Of a stretch of DNA of 64,000 bases, positions 13,049-37,955 are shown piece after piece; position 1 is the first letter of the stretch; each line of letters starts with the position of its first letter. Below the pieces are notes generated by a model. It had not been told where the DNA came from. It was given only the letters and a program-made list of their open reading frames with translations, and made no database searches. Source of the DNA: Bacteroidia bacterium (GTDB lineage: Bacteria; Bacteroidota; Bacteroidia; Bacteroidales; Paludibacteraceae); the NCBI GenBank assembly GCA_009929375.1, contig SAAO01000020.1:1-64000 (forward strand). Reading direction: 5' to 3'. The position numbers were made by a program, and so were the translations under genes.

Positions 13049-13233
13049 TTACTTCGCTTTTGCGGGTGCAAATATAGGAAAGAGTTTTGAATTATCAAAA
13101 CCAAAAATACATTTTCCTTTGCAGAATCCTGTATTTACAGCTAATCAGAACTGAATGTAAGTATATTAACCGAAAATAATTTTACATGTTTTTTGTTTTT
13201 AATCCCGAACAAATAAAATCCAAAACTATTGGT

Positions 13234-13241
13234 TATTTTTG
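13234..13241 (+). promoter_or_regulatory. Promoter -7 box for mltG
   Basis: TATTTTTG matches TAnnTTTG 70 bases before the mltG start. No -33 element is evident. Confidence 0.4.
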
Positions 13242-13310
13242 CAGGCGAAAACCGACAAACATTTTCGACTTATAAAACAAAAAAACAGCTTTCCAAACAT
13301 CGAAAACTGA

Positions 13311-14345
13311 ATGAAAAAGAACAAACGCACCAACTCCTTTCTGCTAAGCATTGCCATGCTTGCCGCCATTATTGTAATATTTGCTGTCTACGTATTTTTA
13401 GTTCCGAACAGTAATACAACCGGCAGCAAAAGTCAATATCTGCTCATACCGGATAATGCAACTTTTGAAACAATTACCGATCAGCTTGCCGAAACAGGAG
13501 CGTTGAAAAGCATTTTTACTTTTACGCTGACAGCAAAAGCCTACGGTTATAAAAATATCAAACCCGGACGTTATGAAATAAATCCGGGCATAAGCAATCT
13601 GCGTCTTGTACACAAACTGAAAACGGGCAGACAAAGCGCACTAAAACTCACTTTCAACAACATACGTACAAAAGAACAACTCGCGGGCAGACTTTCCAGA
13701 CAAATAATGGCCGATTCTGCAAGCATTCTGCAACATTTAAACGATTCTGCATTTCTTACAAAATACGAGCTTAACCCGAATACATCTGTGGCTTTGTTTA
13801 TTCCTGACACTTACGAAGTCTTCTGGGACATGGATGCTGAGGAATTATTTGAAAGAATGAAAAAAGAATACGATCGTTTCTGGAACGATGAACGTAAGGG
13901 AAAAGCCGCTCAAATACCTATGACTGCTGTGGAAGTGAGCACACTGGCTTCAATTGTGGAAGAAGAAACCAATAGCAAGTCCGAACGACCTATGGTAGCC
14001 GGATTATATATCAATCGTCTCAAAACGGAAATGCCTCTTCAGGCCGATCCTACCGTTAAGTTTGCGTATGGCGATTTTAGTTTGCGTCGTATTACAGGCA
14101 CACATTTACGCATACAATCGCCCTACAATACTTATAAAAACAAAGGGCTGCCTCCCGGCCCTATCCGTCTGGCCACAGCCTCAGGAATTGATGCAGTACT
14201 GAACTATTCAAAGCACAATTACATTTTCATGTGTGCCAAAGAAACGCTGAATGGTGAACATAATTTTGCAGCCACCTATGCCGAGCATCAGGTGAATGCA
14301 AAAAAATACCAGAAAGCGCTTGACGACAGAAAGATTTTTGAATAA
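13311..14345 (+). CDS. mltG: Endolytic murein transglycosylase MltG
   Basis: Cuts nascent peptidoglycan glycan strands, setting their length, from the cytoplasmic membrane. 344 residues, with an N-terminal membrane anchor (about 11-31, SFLLSIAMLAAIIVIFAVYVFL), a LysM-like subdomain (about 42-105) and the YceG catalytic domain. The catalytic Glu lies in STLASIVEEETNSKSERPMVAGLYINRL (about 210-237), followed by the family motif MPLQADPTVKFAYG. The ending YNTYKNKGLPPGPIRLATASGIDAVLN with FMCAKETLNGEHNFA is also diagnostic. It is convergent with murB. Confidence 0.93.
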   Translation: MKKNKRTNSFLLSIAMLAAIIVIFAVYVFLVPNSNTTGSKSQYLLIPDNATFETITDQLAETGALKSIFTFTLTAKAYGYKNIKPGRYEINPGISNLRLVHKLKTGRQSALKLTFNNIRTKEQLAGRLSRQIMADSASILQHLNDSAFLTKYELNPNTSVALFIPDTYEVFWDMDAEELFERMKKEYDRFWNDERKGKAAQIPMTAVEVSTLASIVEEETNSKSERPMVAGLYINRLKTEMPLQADPTVKFAYGDFSLRRITGTHLRIQSPYNTYKNKGLPPGPIRLATASGIDAVLNYSKHNYIFMCAKETLNGEHNFAATYAEHQVNAKKYQKALDDRKIFE

Positions 14346-27292: not shown

Positions 27293-27310
27293 ATACCATA
27301 AACATGGTAT
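27293..27310. promoter_or_regulatory. Operator-like palindrome upstream of cysK
   Basis: ATACCAT-AAAC-ATGGTAT is a perfect palindrome of two 7-base arms around 4 bases. Its centre is 54.5 bases before the first base of the cysK -7 box. The inner 16-mer TACCATAAACATGGTA recurs with one mismatch upstream of susC (30435-30450, reverse orientation) and in the 37.8-kb divergent region. It is a candidate binding site for a dimeric regulator, probably an activator given the position about 65 bases before the transcript start. Confidence 0.65.
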
Positions 27311-27402: not shown

Positions 27403-28350
27403 ATGGCAAAAATAGCAAAGAATCTGAACGAACTGATTGGTAACACTCCGCTGTTGCAACTCTCGAATTTTGCATCGAATAAAAATCTCGAAGCAAATGT
27501 AATTGTAAAGCTCGAATCGTTTAACCCTGCAGGTTGCGTAAAAGAGCGTATCGCACTGGCCATGGTCGAAGCAGCAGAAGCAGCAGGCATTCTGAAACCG
27601 GGTGTTGAAATTATTGAACCTACAAGTGGTAACACAGGGATCGGACTTGCCATGGTAGCAGCCGTGAAAGGTTATAAACTGACGCTGACAATGCCCGAAA
27701 CCATGAGCATCGAACGTCGCAACCTATTGAAAGCTTTCGGCGCTAACCTGGTGCTGACTCCCGGAGCGAATGGTATGAAAGGCGCTATTGCCCGTGCCAT
27801 TGAACTGCACGAAGAAAATCCGGCTTCGTTTATTCCGCAACAATTCGAAAATGCAGCCAATCCTGAAGTACATTACCGCACCACCGGCGCCGAAATATGG
27901 AACGACACCGATGGCAAAATCGATATTTTTGTAGCGGGTGTGGGTACCGGCGGAACTGTGAGCGGTGTAGGTAAATACCTGAAAGAAAAAAATCCTAATG
28001 TAAAAATAGTAGCTGTGGAACCTGCCGATTCGCCTGTACTGTCGGGTGGCGCTCCCGGTCCGCACAAAATTCAGGGCATAGGCGCAGGCTTTATTCCTAA
28101 AAATTACGATGGCAGCGTGGTGGACGAAGTGCTTCAGGTAAGCAACGACAACGCGATACTTACTTCGCGCCAGTTGGCACAACAGGAAGGTTTGCTCGTG
28201 GGTATTTCGTCAGGAGCAGCAGCTTATGCAGCTACAGTCCTGGCCCAACGTCCCGAAAACAAAGGCAAAAACATTGTGGCACTGCTTCCCGACACCGGCG
28301 AACGCTATCTGTCGACTTTGCTTTATGCATTTGAGGAATACCCTCTTTGA
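27403..28350 (+). CDS. cysK: Cysteine synthase A (O-acetylserine sulfhydrylase)
   Basis: Makes cysteine from O-acetylserine and sulfide, PLP-dependent, in the cytoplasm. The start at 27403 ([20 protein letters not shown], 315 residues) is fixed by the promoter just upstream. The PLP lysine is in [15 protein letters not shown]; the usual NPGGSVKDR is slightly altered, with Cys in place of Ser before VK. The phosphate loop [14 protein letters not shown], the [14 protein letters not shown] loop and the C-terminal [11 protein letters not shown] follow. It heads the cysK-osmC-metY block. The palindrome upstream is shared with the susC promoter, which implies common control by sulfur supply. Confidence 0.95.
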
Positions 28351-29009: not shown

Positions 29010-30359
<1,350 letters not shown>

Positions 30360-30378: not shown

Positions 30379-30409
30379 AAAAGCATTCTCTCAAAAGGAG
30401 GATGCTTTT
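30379..30409 (+). terminator. Terminator of metY
   Basis: AAAAGCAT and ATGCTTTT form a stem that extends inward by CTC/GAG past a mismatch. It is followed by TTTGTTTTC. It begins 20 bases after the metY stop and closes the cysK-osmC-metY block. Confidence 0.75.
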
Positions 30410-30434: not shown

Positions 30435-30450
30435 TACCTTGTTTATGGTA
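30435..30450. promoter_or_regulatory. Operator-like palindrome upstream of susC
   Basis: TACCTTGTTTATGGTA is, in reverse complement, TACCATAAACAAGGTA, 15 of 16 bases identical to the cysK palindrome. Its centre lies 54.5 bases before the first base of the -7 box, exactly the cysK spacing. The equal spacing is the strongest argument for a shared regulator. Confidence 0.65.
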
Positions 30451-30496: not shown

Positions 30497-30504
30497 TATT
30501 TTTG
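30497..30504 (+). promoter_or_regulatory. Promoter -7 box for the susC operon
   Basis: TATTTTTG, preceded by C-T and followed by CA, is nearly identical to the cysK -7 box. No TTG sits at -33, which fits an activator-dependent promoter. The transcript would start near 30511. Confidence 0.6.
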
Positions 30505-30520
30505 CAAAAGGAAATTTGAA

Positions 30521-30568
30521 CCCGGAACACGGAACACGAAACACGAAACTCGAAACCCGAAACACCCA
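30521..30568. repeat. Intergenic word repeat: GGAACACGGAACACGAAACACG
   Basis: CCGGAACACGGAACACGAAA and CACGAAACTCGAAACCCGAA are successive near-copies of a 7-8 base word. The tract lies between the predicted transcript start and the leader ORF, so it would be transcribed. Confidence 0.6.
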
Positions 30569-30643
30569 ATGTCAAACAACAATTCAAATATAATGTGTAT
30601 GTGCTGCTGTAAAACTTATGGTCGGCTCATTTCCCGTGTATAA
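30569..30643 (+). CDS. Cys-rich leader peptide of the susC operon
   Basis: A 24-codon ORF too short for standard gene calling. From its ATG it reads Asn/Ser-rich residues to the run IMCMCCCKTYG, then RLISRV and a TAA stop. The six residues MCMCCC use TGT, TGC, TGC and TGT for Cys. A second in-frame ATG at 30593 would give a 16-residue form beginning MCMCCC. Sulfur amino acids make up the critical run, as Trp or His do in the leader peptides of trp and his operons. It sits 28 bases before a terminator hairpin and carries the antiterminator segment (30619-30627) within its own coding sequence. The function is inferred from architecture. Confidence 0.65.
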   Translation: MSNNNSNIMCMCCCKTYGRLISRV

Positions 30644-30706
30644 CAAATCAAAAGAAATACAACAATGAAAAGGCTGATCAACGAAAGTTTATCGGTCTTT
30701 ATTTTT
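30619..30706 (+). promoter_or_regulatory. Attenuator: antiterminator segment and terminator hairpin
   Basis: The terminator is GGCTGATCAAC, a GAAA tetraloop, and GTTTATCGGTC (30672-30697): 10 of 11 positions pair, counting two G-U, then the tract TTTATTTTT. Its left arm (30672-30680) can pair instead with TGGTCGGCT at 30619-30627 inside the leader ORF: nine contiguous pairs, three of them G-U. The two folds exclude each other. A ribosome waiting at the Cys codons would leave the upstream segment free to form the antiterminator and let susC be transcribed. Confidence 0.65.
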
Positions 30707-30745
30707 AAAAATAAAACAGTATTTATCAATTAATAAAACAAGCAA

Positions 30746-33700
30746 ATGAAAAGATTAAGGTTAGAAAAGATTACATTCGTTTTGTTGCTGAGCCTGCTGA
30801 TTACCGGAGTTTCGGCGCAGACCAAAGCCCTGCTCAGCGTGACCGGAAAAGTGACCGATACCTCGGGTACCGAACTGGCAGGAGTTACCGTATTGCACAA
30901 AGATGCAAAATCAGCCGGAACCATTACCGATGCTCAGGGAAAATTCAGCATCAGCATTCCCCGTGGCGAGTATCTTGTTTTCTCGTACATTGGGTTCGAA
31001 ACACAGACTGTTCAGGTAAACACCGACCGACAGATCAACATACAACTAAAAGAAAGCTCCACTTATCTGAACGAAGTGGTCATTACCTCGCTCAATATTC
31101 CACGTGAGAAAAAAGCGCTGGGATATTCGGTGCAGGGCGTTAGCGATGAAGCCTTTCAGACTCGTCCAACCAATGCACTGAGTGCATTGACAGGTAAAAT
31201 TGCAGGTTTGCAGGTGATCAGCAGCGGAGGAAACCTCGGAGGTTCATCGCGCATAACACTGCGTGGTATCAACTCCATTACCGGAAATAACCAGCCACTT
31301 TACGTCATTGATGGTGTGCCCCTTGACAATACCGACCTGAACACTTCGTCGACAATCAACGGTAGCGCCGGAAAAGATGTGGGAAGCACCATTCAGGACA
31401 TTAACCCTGACGACATTGCCGATGTGAGTGTGCTCAAAGGCCCTTCGGCAGCTGCACTTTACGGTTCGCGGGCAGCCAACGGTGTGATTCTGATCACCAC
31501 AAAAAAAGGCTCGGGAACATCAGGTAAGCTAAGCGTAGAACTTAACACAGGCATTGAATTCGAAAATGTGGTGCGACTTCCCGAACGGCAGAAACTTTAC
31601 GGAGGCGGATATAACACCACTTTCTCCACAGCAAACATTAATGGAACAACCTATAATATTGTGGATTATGCTTCGGACGAAAGCTGGGGTCCTAAACTCG
31701 ACGGAACACCTGTGCTTCACTGGTACAATCTCGACCCTGAATACCCGGCCGACTATCTGAATCCCGAACCCTGGCTGTATCCTGAAAATGATGTGAACTA
31801 CTTTTTCAGAACGGGCGTTGCCAACACCAACAATATTTCGCTGTCGCAAACAACCGACAAAGCATCGTTCCGCATATCATTGACAAACAAAAATGTAAGA
31901 GGAACAGTGCCCAACTCGTCGCTGAGTCGTAATGCAGTAAATATATCAGGTAGCACCAATGGTAAGTTTATTTCGTTCTTTGGAAATGCCAATTATCTGA
32001 AAAACAAATCGCTTGGTCGCCCATGGACAGGTGCTTCGAACCGGAATATTATCCTTGAAGCCTTTCAATGGGGAGCTGTGCAGGTGGATTACAAAAAGCT
32101 GGAGGAATATAAACGTCCCGACGGTACACCCCGTGCATGGAACCGAACAGGATATGCAAACACCGTGGGAGATGAAAAAACAAGATACATCGACAATCCC
32201 TACTGGTCGGCTTACGAAAGTTATCTTGAAGAAGACCGCGACCGCCTTTACGGAAATGTGGGAGTAAAAATCACGCCTGCAAGTTGGTTAACGGTAACCG
32301 GGCGCATCAATGGTGATATTTATCAGTACAATGCGCAGGACAGAATTGCGGTTTACTCGCGTTCGCAGTCGCAATACTCCGAATACCTTCAGAAGTACAA
32401 TGAGTTTAACTACGAGTTGATAGCCACTGCCAACAAAAGCTGGGGTGCACATTCGCTGGTGGCCAATCTGGGAACCAACTACCTGCAACGTTCGCGCCGT
32501 GTGAGCGATATAGTTACTTCAGGCGGACTTATTATTCCGAATTTCTACAGTCTGAGCAATGCCACTTCCACCATCATTGGTTCGTCGACAGGTATTTACA
32601 ACAAAGCGCTGGCTTCGGTATTCGGAAGTTTCTCCTACGGTTGGAACAGCACTTTCTACCTCGATGGAACTTTGCGTAACGACTGGTCGTCCACACTGCC
32701 CGAAGCGCACAATTCCTATCTGTATCCTTCGCTGACCTCATCGGTGATTCTGAGCGAATTGCCCGGACTAAAAAATCAGCAATGGCTTTCGTTCGCTAAA
32801 TTCCGTTTGGGATGGGCGCAGGTGGGTAACGATACTGATCCTTATCAGCTTTACAAGGTGTACGAATCGGTTACCGCTATCAACGGCAACATTGCCTACT
32901 CCCTGCCGGGGCAGCTCAACAACCTGAACCTGAAACCAGAAATCACATCTTCGATCGAAACAGGTATTCAGTTGCAATTATTTAAAAACCTGATTGGGTT
33001 GGATGTGACTTATTACAACAATAACAGTCGCAATCAGATTATTTCATTACCGACTTCGGATGCCTTTGGCTATAATTCGAAACTGATTAATGCCGGCGAA
33101 ATAAACAACCAGGGGATTGAAGTTACTTTGACTGCAAATCCGGTAAAAACACGTGACTTCGACTGGAACTCAAGCATCAACTTTTCGAAAAACACAAATA
33201 AAATCGTAAAACTGTCTGATGCCGTTTCCAAACTTGACCTTAGCAACACACTCGTAAGTCTTGTGGCTCAGGAAGGTGAAAGTTACGGACAATTGCAGGG
33301 TTACGACTTTGTGTATGCTCCTGACGGACAAAAAGTAATCGGAGCAGATGGACTTTATGTGCGTACGCAGCAACTTAAATCACTCGGCAGCGTGTTGCCC
33401 GATTTCCTTTGGAGTTTTCAGAATCAGTTCCGCTACAAGGATTTTACTTTCGGTTTCCTGATTGATTCGCGTGTAGGCGGAAAATTCTTCTCGCAAACCT
33501 ATAAAGTGGCCATGTACTCAGGTATTCTACCCGAAACGGCAGCCAACGGCATCCGCGAAACTGGAGTTGTGATTGATGGGGTGACCGGCGATGTAACTTT
33601 CAATCCTGATGGTTCATACACAGTGAGCAACACAGCGCCAAACACTAAAAACGTAAGTGCACAGGCCTGGGCACGTAATCATTACAATGGCCCTACTACT

Positions 33701-33952
33701 TTCGATATTTTTGATGCCAGCTTTATAAAACTGCGCGAAGTGACACTGGGTTACGACCTGAAACTTCCCAAAGGCAGCGCCATCGAAAGCATCAACACTT
33801 CAGTGTATGCCCGTAATCTGTTTTATCTGTTCCGCGAAAGTAAAACAATTGACCCCGAATTGACTAACAGCGGTGGAAACGTGCAGGGAATTGAAGGTGG
33901 AAACATGCCTACTCCGCTTACTTACGGTCTGAACATCAGCTTTAAATTTTAA
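30746..33952 (+). CDS. SusC/RagA-type TonB-dependent outer-membrane transporter
   Basis: An outer-membrane importer energised by TonB that works with the SusD lipoprotein next to it. 1068 residues. Signal peptide (about 1-25, ending GVSAQ), carboxypeptidase-D regulatory-like domain (about 30-112, with VTDTSGTELAGVTVLHKDAKSAGTITDAQGKFSI split over two strands), and a plug with ALTGKIAGLQVISSGG and the SusC signature LKGPSAAALYGSRAANGVILITTKKG. A beta-barrel ends in an aromatic residue (ISFKF). The substrate class is not readable from sequence. Position beside cysK/metY, the shared palindrome and the Cys-rich leader point to a sulfur compound rather than a glycan. Confidence 0.95.
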   Translation: MKRLRLEKITFVLLLSLLITGVSAQTKALLSVTGKVTDTSGTELAGVTVLHKDAKSAGTITDAQGKFSISIPRGEYLVFSYIGFETQTVQVNTDRQINIQLKESSTYLNEVVITSLNIPREKKALGYSVQGVSDEAFQTRPTNALSALTGKIAGLQVISSGGNLGGSSRITLRGINSITGNNQPLYVIDGVPLDNTDLNTSSTINGSAGKDVGSTIQDINPDDIADVSVLKGPSAAALYGSRAANGVILITTKKGSGTSGKLSVELNTGIEFENVVRLPERQKLYGGGYNTTFSTANINGTTYNIVDYASDESWGPKLDGTPVLHWYNLDPEYPADYLNPEPWLYPENDVNYFFRTGVANTNNISLSQTTDKASFRISLTNKNVRGTVPNSSLSRNAVNISGSTNGKFISFFGNANYLKNKSLGRPWTGASNRNIILEAFQWGAVQVDYKKLEEYKRPDGTPRAWNRTGYANTVGDEKTRYIDNPYWSAYESYLEEDRDRLYGNVGVKITPASWLTVTGRINGDIYQYNAQDRIAVYSRSQSQYSEYLQKYNEFNYELIATANKSWGAHSLVANLGTNYLQRSRRVSDIVTSGGLIIPNFYSLSNATSTIIGSSTGIYNKALASVFGSFSYGWNSTFYLDGTLRNDWSSTLPEAHNSYLYPSLTSSVILSELPGLKNQQWLSFAKFRLGWAQVGNDTDPYQLYKVYESVTAINGNIAYSLPGQLNNLNLKPEITSSIETGIQLQLFKNLIGLDVTYYNNNSRNQIISLPTSDAFGYNSKLINAGEINNQGIEVTLTANPVKTRDFDWNSSINFSKNTNKIVKLSDAVSKLDLSNTLVSLVAQEGESYGQLQGYDFVYAPDGQKVIGADGLYVRTQQLKSLGSVLPDFLWSFQNQFRYKDFTFGFLIDSRVGGKFFSQTYKVAMYSGILPETAANGIRETGVVIDGVTGDVTFNPDGSYTVSNTAPNTKNVSAQAWARNHYNGPTTFDIFDASFIKLREVTLGYDLKLPKGSAIESINTSVYARNLFYLFRESKTIDPELTNSGGNVQGIEGGNMPTPLTYGLNISFKF

Positions 33953-33979: not shown

Positions 33980-35518
33980 ATGAAACTCAAAACAATATAT
34001 ACACTTATTATTTCGTTGACTGTAGCAGGTTTTAGCTCCTGCATCGACGAGGATCTGAACATTGATCCAAACCGTCCCTCGGCTGTGCCAACCACTTCGC
34101 TTATTGTAACTGCCGAAAAACGCCTTGTCGACAATCTCCGCAGTGAGAATATTTCTCTGCGTGGCTCAGCACTCTTTGTGCAGCAACTGGCGCTGAACAC
34201 ATACACAAGTCAGTCGCGTTACGACATTCCGTTCAGCTACTCAGCCGATTACTGGAGCGGACTTTACAAGGTGTTGAACAACCTTCAGGAAATCATTAAT
34301 CTGAACACAAATCCGGCCACTAAAGACATAGTAACAGCCAACGGTGCGGGACGTAATGCTAATCAGATAGCCATTAGCCGCATTCTGAAATCCTATGCTT
34401 TTTATGCCCTTACCGATGTATTTGGCAATGTTCCCTACCATTCGTACGGTAGCAACGATCCGGACTTTCAGGCTTTACAACAAAACCCCGATAATATCAC
34501 CCCTAAATATGCTTCGCAGGAGAAAATATATGCCGACATTCTGAAAGAGCTGAAAGAAGCCGGAGATACGCTGCTGAAATATTCAACTGAAAAAACATTT
34601 GGTAACTCGGACATAATTTATGCCGGCGATAATGCCAAATGGGCAAAATTTGCCAACTCATTGCGCCTGCGTTTTGCCACCCGTTTGAAAGCTAAAAATC
34701 CGACTTTGTATCAGAGTCATTTTGCCGATGCGCTTGCCAAAGGTGTATTTACAAGCAATGCCGACAATGCTGTGTACAAATATGCCAGCTCGTCGCCCAA
34801 CGAAGCACCACTCTACCGTGCCACAGTAACTGCCAATCGTAAAGACTTTGCCATTTCGCATGTATTTATCGGATTGTTGAATGGCGAAAATCCGCAACTT
34901 CCCGTGGCTGATCCACGCCTGGCAATATTTGCTTCGAAAAACAGTGCCGGAAATTATGTGGGATTGCCTTACGGACTTACCGAAGGTCAGGCAGGTAAAT
35001 TTTCCGCCACAGGAGTAAGTCTGCCGGGTGCTGTGTACAATGCTGCAAATTTTGGCGAAGTACTTCAGGAATACAGCGAAGTGGCTTTTCTGATTTCGGA
35101 ATATAACAACTGGAGTCAGGCCGATTATGAAAAAGCTGTAAGAGCATCACTCGAAAAATGGGGAGTTTCCGCTGCTGACGTAAATACTTACATTGCTGCT
35201 TTACCTTCAGCCGGTGAACAAAGTGTATTGAACCAGAAATACATTGCGCTGTTTACGCAGTTTCTCGAAGGCTGGAGTGAATATCGCCGTACAGGCTATC
35301 CGAATTTCCTGATCAAAAAAGACGATGTGGTATTCAGCGGAACCATCGAAGGAACACCGGTCACTTATACGTTCAGCCCTTTATTTGGTGATGGAGGCGT
35401 ACCCGCACGACTTTATTATCCTGTAAAAGAACAAACAGTGAATAAAGCCAGTTATCAGGCGGCCATTGCGGCTCAGGGAAATGATGTGATAGAAACCGAT
35501 TTGTGGATATTTGAATAA
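33980..35518 (+). CDS. SusD/RagB-family (SusD-like 2) surface lipoprotein
   Basis: The lid protein that captures substrate above the SusC barrel. 512 residues. A lipoprotein signal ends at SLTVAGFSSC (Cys20), followed by acidic IDEDLNIDPNRPSAVPTTSL. The helical TPR-like SusD fold shows AISRILKSYAFYALTDVFGNVPYHSYG and GDNAKWAKFANSLRLRFATRL, both typical of the SusD-like 2 subfamily. That subfamily is found with transporters for non-glycan substrates as well as glycans. The gene starts 27 bases after susC and ends before a strong promoter that lies in its last codons. Confidence 0.93.
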   Translation: MKLKTIYTLIISLTVAGFSSCIDEDLNIDPNRPSAVPTTSLIVTAEKRLVDNLRSENISLRGSALFVQQLALNTYTSQSRYDIPFSYSADYWSGLYKVLNNLQEIINLNTNPATKDIVTANGAGRNANQIAISRILKSYAFYALTDVFGNVPYHSYGSNDPDFQALQQNPDNITPKYASQEKIYADILKELKEAGDTLLKYSTEKTFGNSDIIYAGDNAKWAKFANSLRLRFATRLKAKNPTLYQSHFADALAKGVFTSNADNAVYKYASSSPNEAPLYRATVTANRKDFAISHVFIGLLNGENPQLPVADPRLAIFASKNSAGNYVGLPYGLTEGQAGKFSATGVSLPGAVYNAANFGEVLQEYSEVAFLISEYNNWSQADYEKAVRASLEKWGVSAADVNTYIAALPSAGEQSVLNQKYIALFTQFLEGWSEYRRTGYPNFLIKKDDVVFSGTIEGTPVTYTFSPLFGDGGVPARLYYPVKEQTVNKASYQAAIAAQGNDVIETDLWIFE

Positions 35519-35875: not shown

Positions 35876-37096
35876 ATGATAAAGAAAATTAGTTTTTTAT
35901 TACTGATCATTTCAGTATTTTTTATTTCGTGCGGACATCAGCATTCGCGGGATGGCATCTGGCGTGGCGAATTGCAGGTGCAGGATCAACAGGCACCTTT
36001 TCTGTTCGAACTGAAAGGCACTCAGAGCGATTCAGCTTCAGCCACACTGATCAATGGCGAGGAAAAAGTAGAACTCACGGGAGTTTCACTCCGCGGTGAC
36101 ACCCTTCTTATTCCGATCGATGCCTATGACGCGTACATTACCGCCATTATTTCGAATGATAAAATGGAAGGCCGTTTTATCAAAAACTATATCGAGAATG
36201 ATTCGGGAGTACCCTTCAGAGCCGACTTTCACACAAAAAGCCGTTTCGAAGCAGTTGAAAAACAGCCTGCAAACAACATCGAAGGCAAATGGGACATTCT
36301 GTTTATTTCAGAAAACGGCGACACAACCAAAAACGTGGGCATCTTTACATCGGCCAATGGCATTGTCACCGGTTCGGTGCTGACTCGCTCGGGCGACCTG
36401 CGTTTTCTCGAAGGCGCTTATACAAACAAAGGTGTGGAACTTTCGGCTTTCAGCGGATTAAGTCCTTATTATTTGCAGTTTACATTCAGTGGAGCGAACA
36501 ATTTCGAAGGATATTTCTATACAACAAGAAATAAAACCAGACTTGTAGCCACCCGAAACGACAAGGCCGGACTCTCCGACCCTTACAATATTGCAAAAAT
36601 GAAACAGGGTGTTTCGTCGCTCGGATTCAGCCTTCCAAATCTCGAAGGTCGTCAGGTTTCACTTCAGGACGAACGCTACAAAGGCAAGGTGGTCATTGTG
36701 TCCATTCTTGGCAGCTGGTGCCCGAACTGTCTCGATGAAGCTGAGTTTCTGGCACCCTGGTACAAAGCCAACAAACAACGCGGTGTGGAAATTATCGGAC
36801 TGGGTTTCGAGCGCAAGGACGATTTTGAATACTCCAAAGCCACTCTCAACCGACTGAAGACGAAATACGGAATTGAGTACGATGTTTTGTTTGCCGGCAA
36901 AGCCGATCCGGAAGGCGTTGCAAAAGTGCTACCCGAAGTCGAGAATTTCTCAGGCTATCCCACCACCCTGTTTATCGACAAAAAAGGCAATGTGCGCAAG
37001 ATTCACACAGGCTTCACCGGACCAGCCACAGGGCTGTTTTACGAGGATTTCAAAAAGGAGTTTAATGCCCTGATTGATTCGCTACTGGCTGAATAA
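35876..37096 (+). CDS. TlpA-like thioredoxin-fold lipoprotein
   Basis: A periplasm-facing thiol-disulfide protein. 406 residues. The lipobox ends at FFISC (Cys19). The N-terminal 230 residues form a beta-rich domain with two similar halves (GIWRGELQVQDQQAPFLFEL and GKWDILFISENGDTTKNVGIF). The C-terminal AhpC/Redoxin domain (about 242-400) contains ILGSWCPNCLDEAEFLAPW with the CPNC redox pair (Cys282 and Cys285), and the cis-Pro region in GYPTTLFIDKKGNV. Such proteins reduce disulfides or process peroxides. After SusC/SusD, reductive release of an imported disulfide such as cystine is an attractive but unproven role. Confidence 0.88.
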   Translation: MIKKISFLLLIISVFFISCGHQHSRDGIWRGELQVQDQQAPFLFELKGTQSDSASATLINGEEKVELTGVSLRGDTLLIPIDAYDAYITAIISNDKMEGRFIKNYIENDSGVPFRADFHTKSRFEAVEKQPANNIEGKWDILFISENGDTTKNVGIFTSANGIVTGSVLTRSGDLRFLEGAYTNKGVELSAFSGLSPYYLQFTFSGANNFEGYFYTTRNKTRLVATRNDKAGLSDPYNIAKMKQGVSSLGFSLPNLEGRQVSLQDERYKGKVVIVSILGSWCPNCLDEAEFLAPWYKANKQRGVEIIGLGFERKDDFEYSKATLNRLKTKYGIEYDVLFAGKADPEGVAKVLPEVENFSGYPTTLFIDKKGNVRKIHTGFTGPATGLFYEDFKKEFNALIDSLLAE

Positions 37097-37792: not shown

Positions 37793-37820
37793 GTGGTAAA
37801 TTACTACCACAAACATGGTA
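37793..37820. promoter_or_regulatory. Operator-like palindromes in the divergent hydrolase-glycosidase region
   Basis: TACCACAAACATGGTA (37805-37820) matches the cysK palindrome at 15 of 16 positions. It overlaps a second palindrome, GTGGTAAATTACTACCAC (37793-37810), with two 6-base arms. The distance to the minus-strand near -7 box of the hydrolase gene is close to that seen at cysK and susC; the distance to the glycosidase -7 box is about twice as long. Confidence 0.55.
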
Positions 37821-37932: not shown

Positions 37933-37955
37933 TAAAAATATTGCAACCCACTGAT

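Follow-up and report, generated by a model that had tools for sequence, protein, structure and literature searches.

The forward strand of the window, by which we mean the whole 64,000-nucleotide stretch of DNA that was analysed, carries cysK, an OsmC-like gene, and metY, followed by susC-susD-tlpA. The cysK gene at 27403..28350 encodes cysteine synthase A (TIGR01139), and metY at 29070..30359 encodes an O-acetylhomoserine/O-acetylserine sulfhydrylase (TIGR01326) and lies directly upstream of the leader region considered here. On the other side of the leader, susC at 30746..33952 codes for a SusC/RagA TonB-linked outer-membrane protein (TIGR04056), susD at 33980..35518 for a SusD-like_2 lipoprotein (PF12771), and the third gene at 35876..37096 for a TlpA-like thioredoxin-fold protein that matches PF00578 (AhpC-TSA) and falls short of the cut-offs of the ResA and TlpA models. 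A terminator scan places a terminator-like hairpin at 30379..30409 on the same strand, just past metY, and the leader hairpin is thus a second, distinct one. TAnnTTTG is the consensus of the Bacteroidota -7 box, and a motif scan with this consensus detects the similar forward-strand motif TATTTTTG at 30497..30504; the sequence suggests a transcription start near 30510. Past the putative promoter and upstream of the leader ORF, 30526-30565 is taken up by a repeat of low complexity (GAACACGGAACACGAAAC type), and similar stretches are scattered at ~18 other places in the genome.

Operator-like palindromes of the form TACC-N8-GGTA are also present on the forward strand. One of them, TACCTTGTTTATGGTA, lies upstream of the promoter-like motif of the leader (30435..30450), and another, TACCATAAACATGGTA, lies 109 nt before cysK (27294..27309); these two fit the susC and cysK promoters, respectively. 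Two additional copies are located inside susD (34436-34451) and before the ORF at 37941 (37805-37820). The window thereby has four matches against 0.29 expected, a number reached in 0 of 100 shuffles. In 20 loci the palindrome occurs 23 times, 12 times before genes of interest and 11 times elsewhere. The 12 placed copies precede cysK (window, G001, L025), the metY leader (G001, L025), susC or a paralogue (window, G001, L027, L035-L037), and a carbonic-anhydrase-like gene (L025). Among the same 20 loci, those of Proteiniphilum and Sphingobacterium have no TACC-N8-GGTA before cysK, metY, or susC. The shared palindrome thus links susC with the sulfur genes in the genus of the window, independently of the leader. 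Its spacing equals the 7-2-7 spacing of NarL-type regulator sites. Reading the L025 sequence by eye, two LuxR-type-looking genes are seen near the cluster, and the carbonic-anhydrase-like gene (13121-13702), with the palindrome before it, is found between tlpA and metY.

Leader ORF and alternative helices

The leader peptide ORF MSNNNSNIMCMCCCKTYGRLISRV at 30569..30643 (+) encodes 24 residues that include Met-Cys-Met-Cys-Cys-Cys, as read from the sequence and placed in the peptide alignment. The control codons TGT ATG TGC TGC TGT (Cys-Met-Cys-Cys-Cys) occupy 30596..30610, with the Cys codons at 30596-30598 and 30602-30610. No NCBIfam model matches the leader peptide. The exact DNA pattern coding for MCMCCC, which is too strict for use, occurs in the window only, among 101 family genomes.

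The core of the leader hairpin (30672-30697) begins 28 bases past the stop codon of the ORF and is paired at 10 of its 11 positions, with a mismatch between C30679 and T30690 and a GAAA loop. Its stem extends to 30669..30700 and constitutes the putative terminator, segments 3:4, on the forward strand, and the T-rich tract TTTATTTTT follows at 30698..30706. Segment 3, the left arm of the terminator (AAAGGCTGATCAAC, 30669..30682), is placed by alignment and folding. Segment 2, the candidate antiterminator strand TGGTCGGCT at 30619..30627, lies inside the ORF and forms nine contiguous pairs, G-U included, with GGCTGATCA at 30672-30680; it is placed by folding and by the helix counts over 17 leaders given below. 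A third hairpin, 1:2, at 30603..30626 appears in the predicted centroid fold, pairs the Cys codons with segment 2, and would be the protector form in the absence of a ribosome. The peptide, the hairpin with its spacing, loop, and T tract, and the nine-pair alternative to its left arm had all been described in an earlier note on this DNA, and every coordinate, the translation, and the pairing were reproduced.

Folding of the stretch 30660-30710 gives -13.3 kcal/mol and a z of -4.39, and 0 of 200 shuffles are as good; the stability of the entire window leader is unremarkable (z -1.0). The terminator of the window has the highest, that is the weakest, energy among 17 leaders (-12.3) and an interrupted U tract; the hairpin is also absent from the list produced by a simple terminator scan of the window. 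Structure in the 5' region of a transporter gene could also point to a metabolite-binding RNA or a tRNA-binding T-box that controls the leader. However, cmscan at the Rfam gathering score finds no family in the leader, its sole match in the window being a distant tRNA; Bacteroid-trp RNA (RF01692), SAM riboswitches, and T-box leaders do not match the window at this score, and 12 related loci likewise have no family apart from one tRNA. Moreover, the conserved structure seen consists of two exclusive helices and an ORF, and control by a metabolite-binding RNA or a T-box appears highly improbable.

Distribution and conservation of the leader

The comparison covers 46 susC orthologues with at least 57% identity over the first 400 residues, window included, obtained from SusD and SusC searches of sampled families, among the loci listed. 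A Cys ORF followed by an intrinsic terminator 13-26 nt past its stop is present in 17 of the 46, namely in the window, in L025, and in 15 loci of the Proteiniphilum acetatigenes family. The gene directly upstream is cysK in 11 of these leaders and metY in the other six, which agrees with the earlier suggestion that the flanking cysK and metY fit a cysteine or sulfur signal. Among the 10-kb loci, the leader is present wherever cysK or metY immediately precedes susC (window, L025, L029-L032, L034, L042) and absent wherever neither was found upstream (L026, L027, L035-L041); L028 and L033 were left out of this comparison since their upstream part is too short. The 29 orthologues without a leader of this type include the genus-mate L027 (G136, Paludibacter sp. 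47-17). They also include nine loci of the Dysgonomonas type (L035-L037, L086, L088-L092), in which a short promoter region takes the place of the leader. The remaining 19 are Petrimonas-type or belong to Sphingobacteriaceae, and 11 of them have a Cys-cluster ORF of another kind. Within 350 nt, Cys-cluster ORFs occur in 23 of 46 orthologues versus 4 of 24 paralogues (Fisher p 0.009), with shuffled rates of 15% and 14%, respectively. The SusC paralogues (~36-49% identity) thus have no Cys-ORF excess, at 4 of 24 versus 14% shuffled.

For 15 of the 17 leaders, the distance from the stop codon of the preceding gene to the ORF start is 13-44 nt, and a search of the 350 nt ahead of the ORF for TAnnTTTG and TACC-N8-GGTA detected neither motif. 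Because of this short gap and the lack of both motifs, the leader of these 15 loci probably lies within a cysK/metY-susCD transcript. The window differs from them in that its leader has a promoter-like region of its own.

The peptide alignment comprises 15 leader peptides, with the near-identical L030 and L084 left out. Its sole invariant column is a Cys, and none of its Met columns is invariant. The control site has a single Cys in 5 of 17 rows (L029-L032, L084). Sensing of methionine, or of both sulfur amino acids, instead of cysteine alone could be proposed from Met-rich peptides beside the Cys run, such as MMVMYMITMKNCCC and MHMMMCC, and from the role of metY, which makes homocysteine for methionine. 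The invariant Cys column and the lack of a Met one argue against it. In addition, inspection of the folds places many of the Met codons within segment 1, with ATG paired to CAT near segment 2, and structure may thus explain these codons; we regard methionine sensing as quite improbable. In the ORF part of the alignment, each of the 35 gaps has a length divisible by 3, though gaps are common to clade-mates. A coding test by synonymous excess gives no signal in these leaders, the fraction being 0.18 in frame and 0.23 and 0.14 out of frame.

The terminator, with 10 pairs in 17 leaders, is paired in 170 of 170 cells and has two-sided changes at 3 pairs. The alternative 2:3 helix, with 7 pairs in 17 leaders, is paired in 114 of 119 cells (95.8%), compared with 6.7-53.8% when it is slid by 1-3 columns. 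Columns 98-103 of segment 2 contain only transitions, and all of them keep the pairing (A/G opposite U, C/U opposite G, U/C opposite A/G). In the seventh segment-2 column, an A breaks the pair in five leaders, and the columns neighbouring segment 2 have transversions as well. Segment 3, which serves both partners, hardly varies. The expectation that orthologous leaders would keep the Cys codons and both helices with covarying pairs is borne out for the most part: the Cys column, the two helices, and the two-sided terminator pairs stand, whereas 29 of the 46 orthologues lack a leader of this type and the 2:3 helix has 0 two-sided pairs among the 17 leaders, with 0 to 2 arising by chance in slid versions.

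A search of 35 genomes with a covariance model built from the 17 leaders recovers all of its training loci and, below E 1e-5, a single new match of full length. The new match, in the genus-mate G001 (E 2.3e-6), stands before metY and not susC, in the arrangement cysK, leader (MNSLFMYMYMCCCHYHFNDRSRRLCIFVK and a terminator), metY. Four of the many weaker matches of this search (L146-L149) show no convincing leader. With the G001 metY leader (L145) added, the terminator is paired in 180 of 180 cells with 6 two-sided pairs (0 of 500 shuffles). The 2:3 helix is then paired in 120 of 126 cells with 2 two-sided pairs, both of which rest on one sequence (L145); 75 of 500 shuffles have as many, and so does the -3 slide. 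A rebuilt model, searched in 200 family genomes, gives three matches below E 1e-10 (window, G001, and G1121, which is by sequence the genome of L025); all are training members, and no new case was found. Seven of its nine weaker matches (E 7.6e-6 to 7.3e-4), that is those besides L239 and L241, have no convincing leader. The candidate L235, with MLMCCPGLREI and a terminator, was dropped as it lies between convergent genes.

The genus-mate L025 also has a metY leader, in which MKYISVNMIMCCFMCRKQ (13812-13868) is followed by a terminator of unrelated sequence. The left arm of this terminator can pair with bases around and past the stop codon, and the leader appears to be analogous, with similar logic in a different sequence. 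A strict scan of 60 metY loci, those listed from 92 genomes with a match, gives 0 with a Cys cluster and terminator and 0 in the antisense control, under a Cys rule that detects only 12 of the 17 known leaders. With a looser hairpin rule, the same 60 loci yield two weak candidates, L161 and L192.

Predicted effect of ribosome position

The effect of a ribosome on the fold was modelled for a polymerase that has just transcribed segment 3. The predicted probability that segment 3 pairs upstream is 0.84-0.99 for a ribosome at the first Cys of the cluster and 0.02-0.46 for one at the stop codon. In the window, with the Cys codons occupied by the ribosome and the right arm unmade, the value is 0.99, and shuffled coding parts average 0.59 (p 0.02). 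For the representatives, shuffling of the coding stretch gives mean upstream pairing of 0.44-0.71, with p 0.005-0.22 per leader and a combined Fisher p of 5.5e-6 over 7 representatives, which are lineage representatives chosen by the author and are assumed to be independent. When the coding stretch is recoded synonymously, so that the peptide is kept, p is 0.06 for the window, 0.06-0.24 for single leaders, and 0.006 for the 7 representatives combined. The spacing from the first base of the last Cys codon to segment 2 is 5-18 nt, and that from segment 2 to the stop is 4-24 nt. At equilibrium, the terminator is predicted to win in the full RNA of all 17 leaders (0.80-1.00), and the switch would therefore have to be kinetic; antitermination in trp is also held to be kinetic. 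In predicted folds of bare leaders, upstream helices with the Cys codons or segment 2 are seen by inspection, as expected of the protector form.

The equilibrium folds and the weak recoding test leader by leader would also suit a hairpin that is the plain terminator of the upstream cysK or metY, with the short ORF and the alternative pairing as by-products. The closeness of the ORF to the upstream stop in 15 of 17 leaders, with neither motif in the preceding 350 nt, and the way in which leader presence tracks the cysK/metY neighbourhood point in the same direction. In contrast, the window has a terminator-like hairpin of its own after metY (30379-30409) and then a promoter-like region. Moreover, a plain terminator would not predict gaps in multiples of 3, an invariant Cys column, or segment-2 variation compatible with pairing, and we consider it unlikely.

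A Cys-codon leader ORF, a terminator before the structural genes, and an exclusive, suitably placed antiterminator are found together at this locus. The leader is very probably a classical ribosome-mediated transcription attenuator reading the supply of Cys-tRNA, a prediction made from sequence comparison and modelled folds. When charged tRNA-Cys is plentiful, the ribosome would reach the stop codon and cover segment 2, which leaves 3:4 to form the terminator ahead of susC. If charged tRNA-Cys runs short, the ribosome would stall on the Cys codons and cover segment 1 with segment 2 free. A segment 2 that is free as segment 3 emerges would form 2:3, and the polymerase would read into susC-susD-tlpA. 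Without translation, 1:2 would form and the terminator would follow. We infer that the leader ORF is translated, that the ribosome stalls, and that readthrough results, and also that the importer takes up a sulfur-containing nutrient. The attenuation logic of the trp and his type, which the earlier note had read from one sequence, gains support from the orthologue Cys column, both helices, and the metY leader of G001.

Short ORFs of other kinds that contain Cys codons were also seen. ORFs ending in RMCC-stop lie before metY in L201, L202, L204, L205, L207, and L208, and upstream of susC in L101, L102, and L104; a related ORF in L145 (8302-8364) ends in RMGCCM. The gene downstream of an ORF of this group is metY, susC, or a paralogue of susC. 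For the six ORFs ahead of metY, a small hairpin involving the Cys codons, TGTGCTG-N4-CRGCACA, can form. From their sequences, the RMCC-stop ORFs resemble cysteine leaders of a second kind, one that has no intrinsic terminator. The pattern gives 22 matches in 395 Bacteroidota genomes versus 16 in the reversed control, hence no enrichment, and one of the 22 (L211) precedes a SusC-like gene. Petrimonas-type loci (L026/L064, L028/L065, L096) have an ORF of the form ..HETSCCCCRLSVF.RMCL ~230 nt before susC, with no terminator seen by eye. Sphingobacterium-type susC leaders (L038, L039, L040, L106, L108-L112) have an ORF ending in R-M-x-x-G-x-x over a hairpin, for example GGAGATAATT/AATTGTCTCC. By inspection, the eighth pair of this hairpin is G-C in L108-L110 and A-T in the others, and each of the nine peptides contains at least one Cys.

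The end of the ORF lies inside a small hairpin in the RMC(C)-stop type and over a conserved hairpin in the Sphingobacterium type. A broader reading, which we find possible but somewhat short of probable, is that Bacteroidota have repeatedly brought one sulfur cluster, made up of cysK, metY, and a single SusCD-TlpA importer family, under the control of cysteine-codon leaders, as the terminator, RMC(C)-stop, and Sphingobacterium RM.(L/I/V)G.. types. The importer would then be a dedicated transporter of cysteine or a thiol nutrient set by tRNA-Cys charging, atop a regulator acting at TACC-N8-GGTA.

Comparison with known attenuators

SusCD importers are hallmark nutrient transporters of Bacteroidota, and, to our knowledge, the cargo of most of them is only guessed. 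A Cys-codon attenuator would name the signal of one importer family from its sequence and thus point to the cargo. The trp and his attenuators of enteric bacteria work with four segments, the control codons lying ahead of segment 2. The proposed leader is similar in this four-segment logic; it differs in the amino acid and in the genes, which are for biosynthesis in trp and his and for outer-membrane import here.

Cysteine leaders have been described before. The uORFC-8-2 motif in the cysS leader of Rhodobacterales is described, in the available part of the report, as a proposed cysteine attenuator with a terminator stem (PMC8632094). It resembles the present leader in its short ORF, tandem Cys codons, Cys-codon stem, terminator stem with a U run, and proposed ribosome-mediated attenuation. 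In contrast to that motif, which precedes cysS in Alphaproteobacteria, the leader here stands before susC or metY and behind cysK or metY in Bacteroidales. Mycobacterial polycysteine leaderless ORFs are called cysteine-responsive attenuators in the title of Canestrari 2020, as cited in PMC13236596. They likewise have Cys runs in a leader ORF and, according to the passages available in PMC13236596, precede cysteine genes and act by translation attenuation of cysteine biosynthesis, whereas here an intrinsic terminator and an importer are concerned. In Actinobacteria, Cys leader peptides precede cys operons or cbs (PMC1262725, as far as its text was accessible). These share the runs of Cys codons, but in the portion available their Cys run is described as close to the stop codon and a conserved terminator hairpin as lacking, unlike in the window, and they are closer to the RMCC-stop leaders than to it.

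Within Bacteroidota, the Bacteroid-trp RNA RF01692 is a cis-regulatory candidate (PMC2864571, from its accessible part), as the window leader is, and does not match the window at the gathering score. Clues of leader-peptide attenuation have been reported before amino-acid biosynthesis operons of Flavobacterium psychrophilum; this is also a member of Bacteroidota, but the cases are biosynthesis operons, and the accessible text of PMC9723704 gave no cysteine or SusC case. Excerpts of a study on 5' regions of B. thetaiotaomicron mention short ORFs reminiscent of attenuation (PMC7366714). No report of cysteine attenuation at SusCD or another TonB-dependent importer was found among the matches listed in the literature searched, with subscription papers mostly outside its scope, and within the same bounds the earlier statement that attenuation had not been described for SusCD holds. 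The cysteine attenuator is thus a known mechanism, and its target gene, a SusCD importer, is of a new sort. Amino-acid attenuation, which is usual at biosynthesis and tRNA-synthetase genes, would thereby be extended to outer-membrane import.
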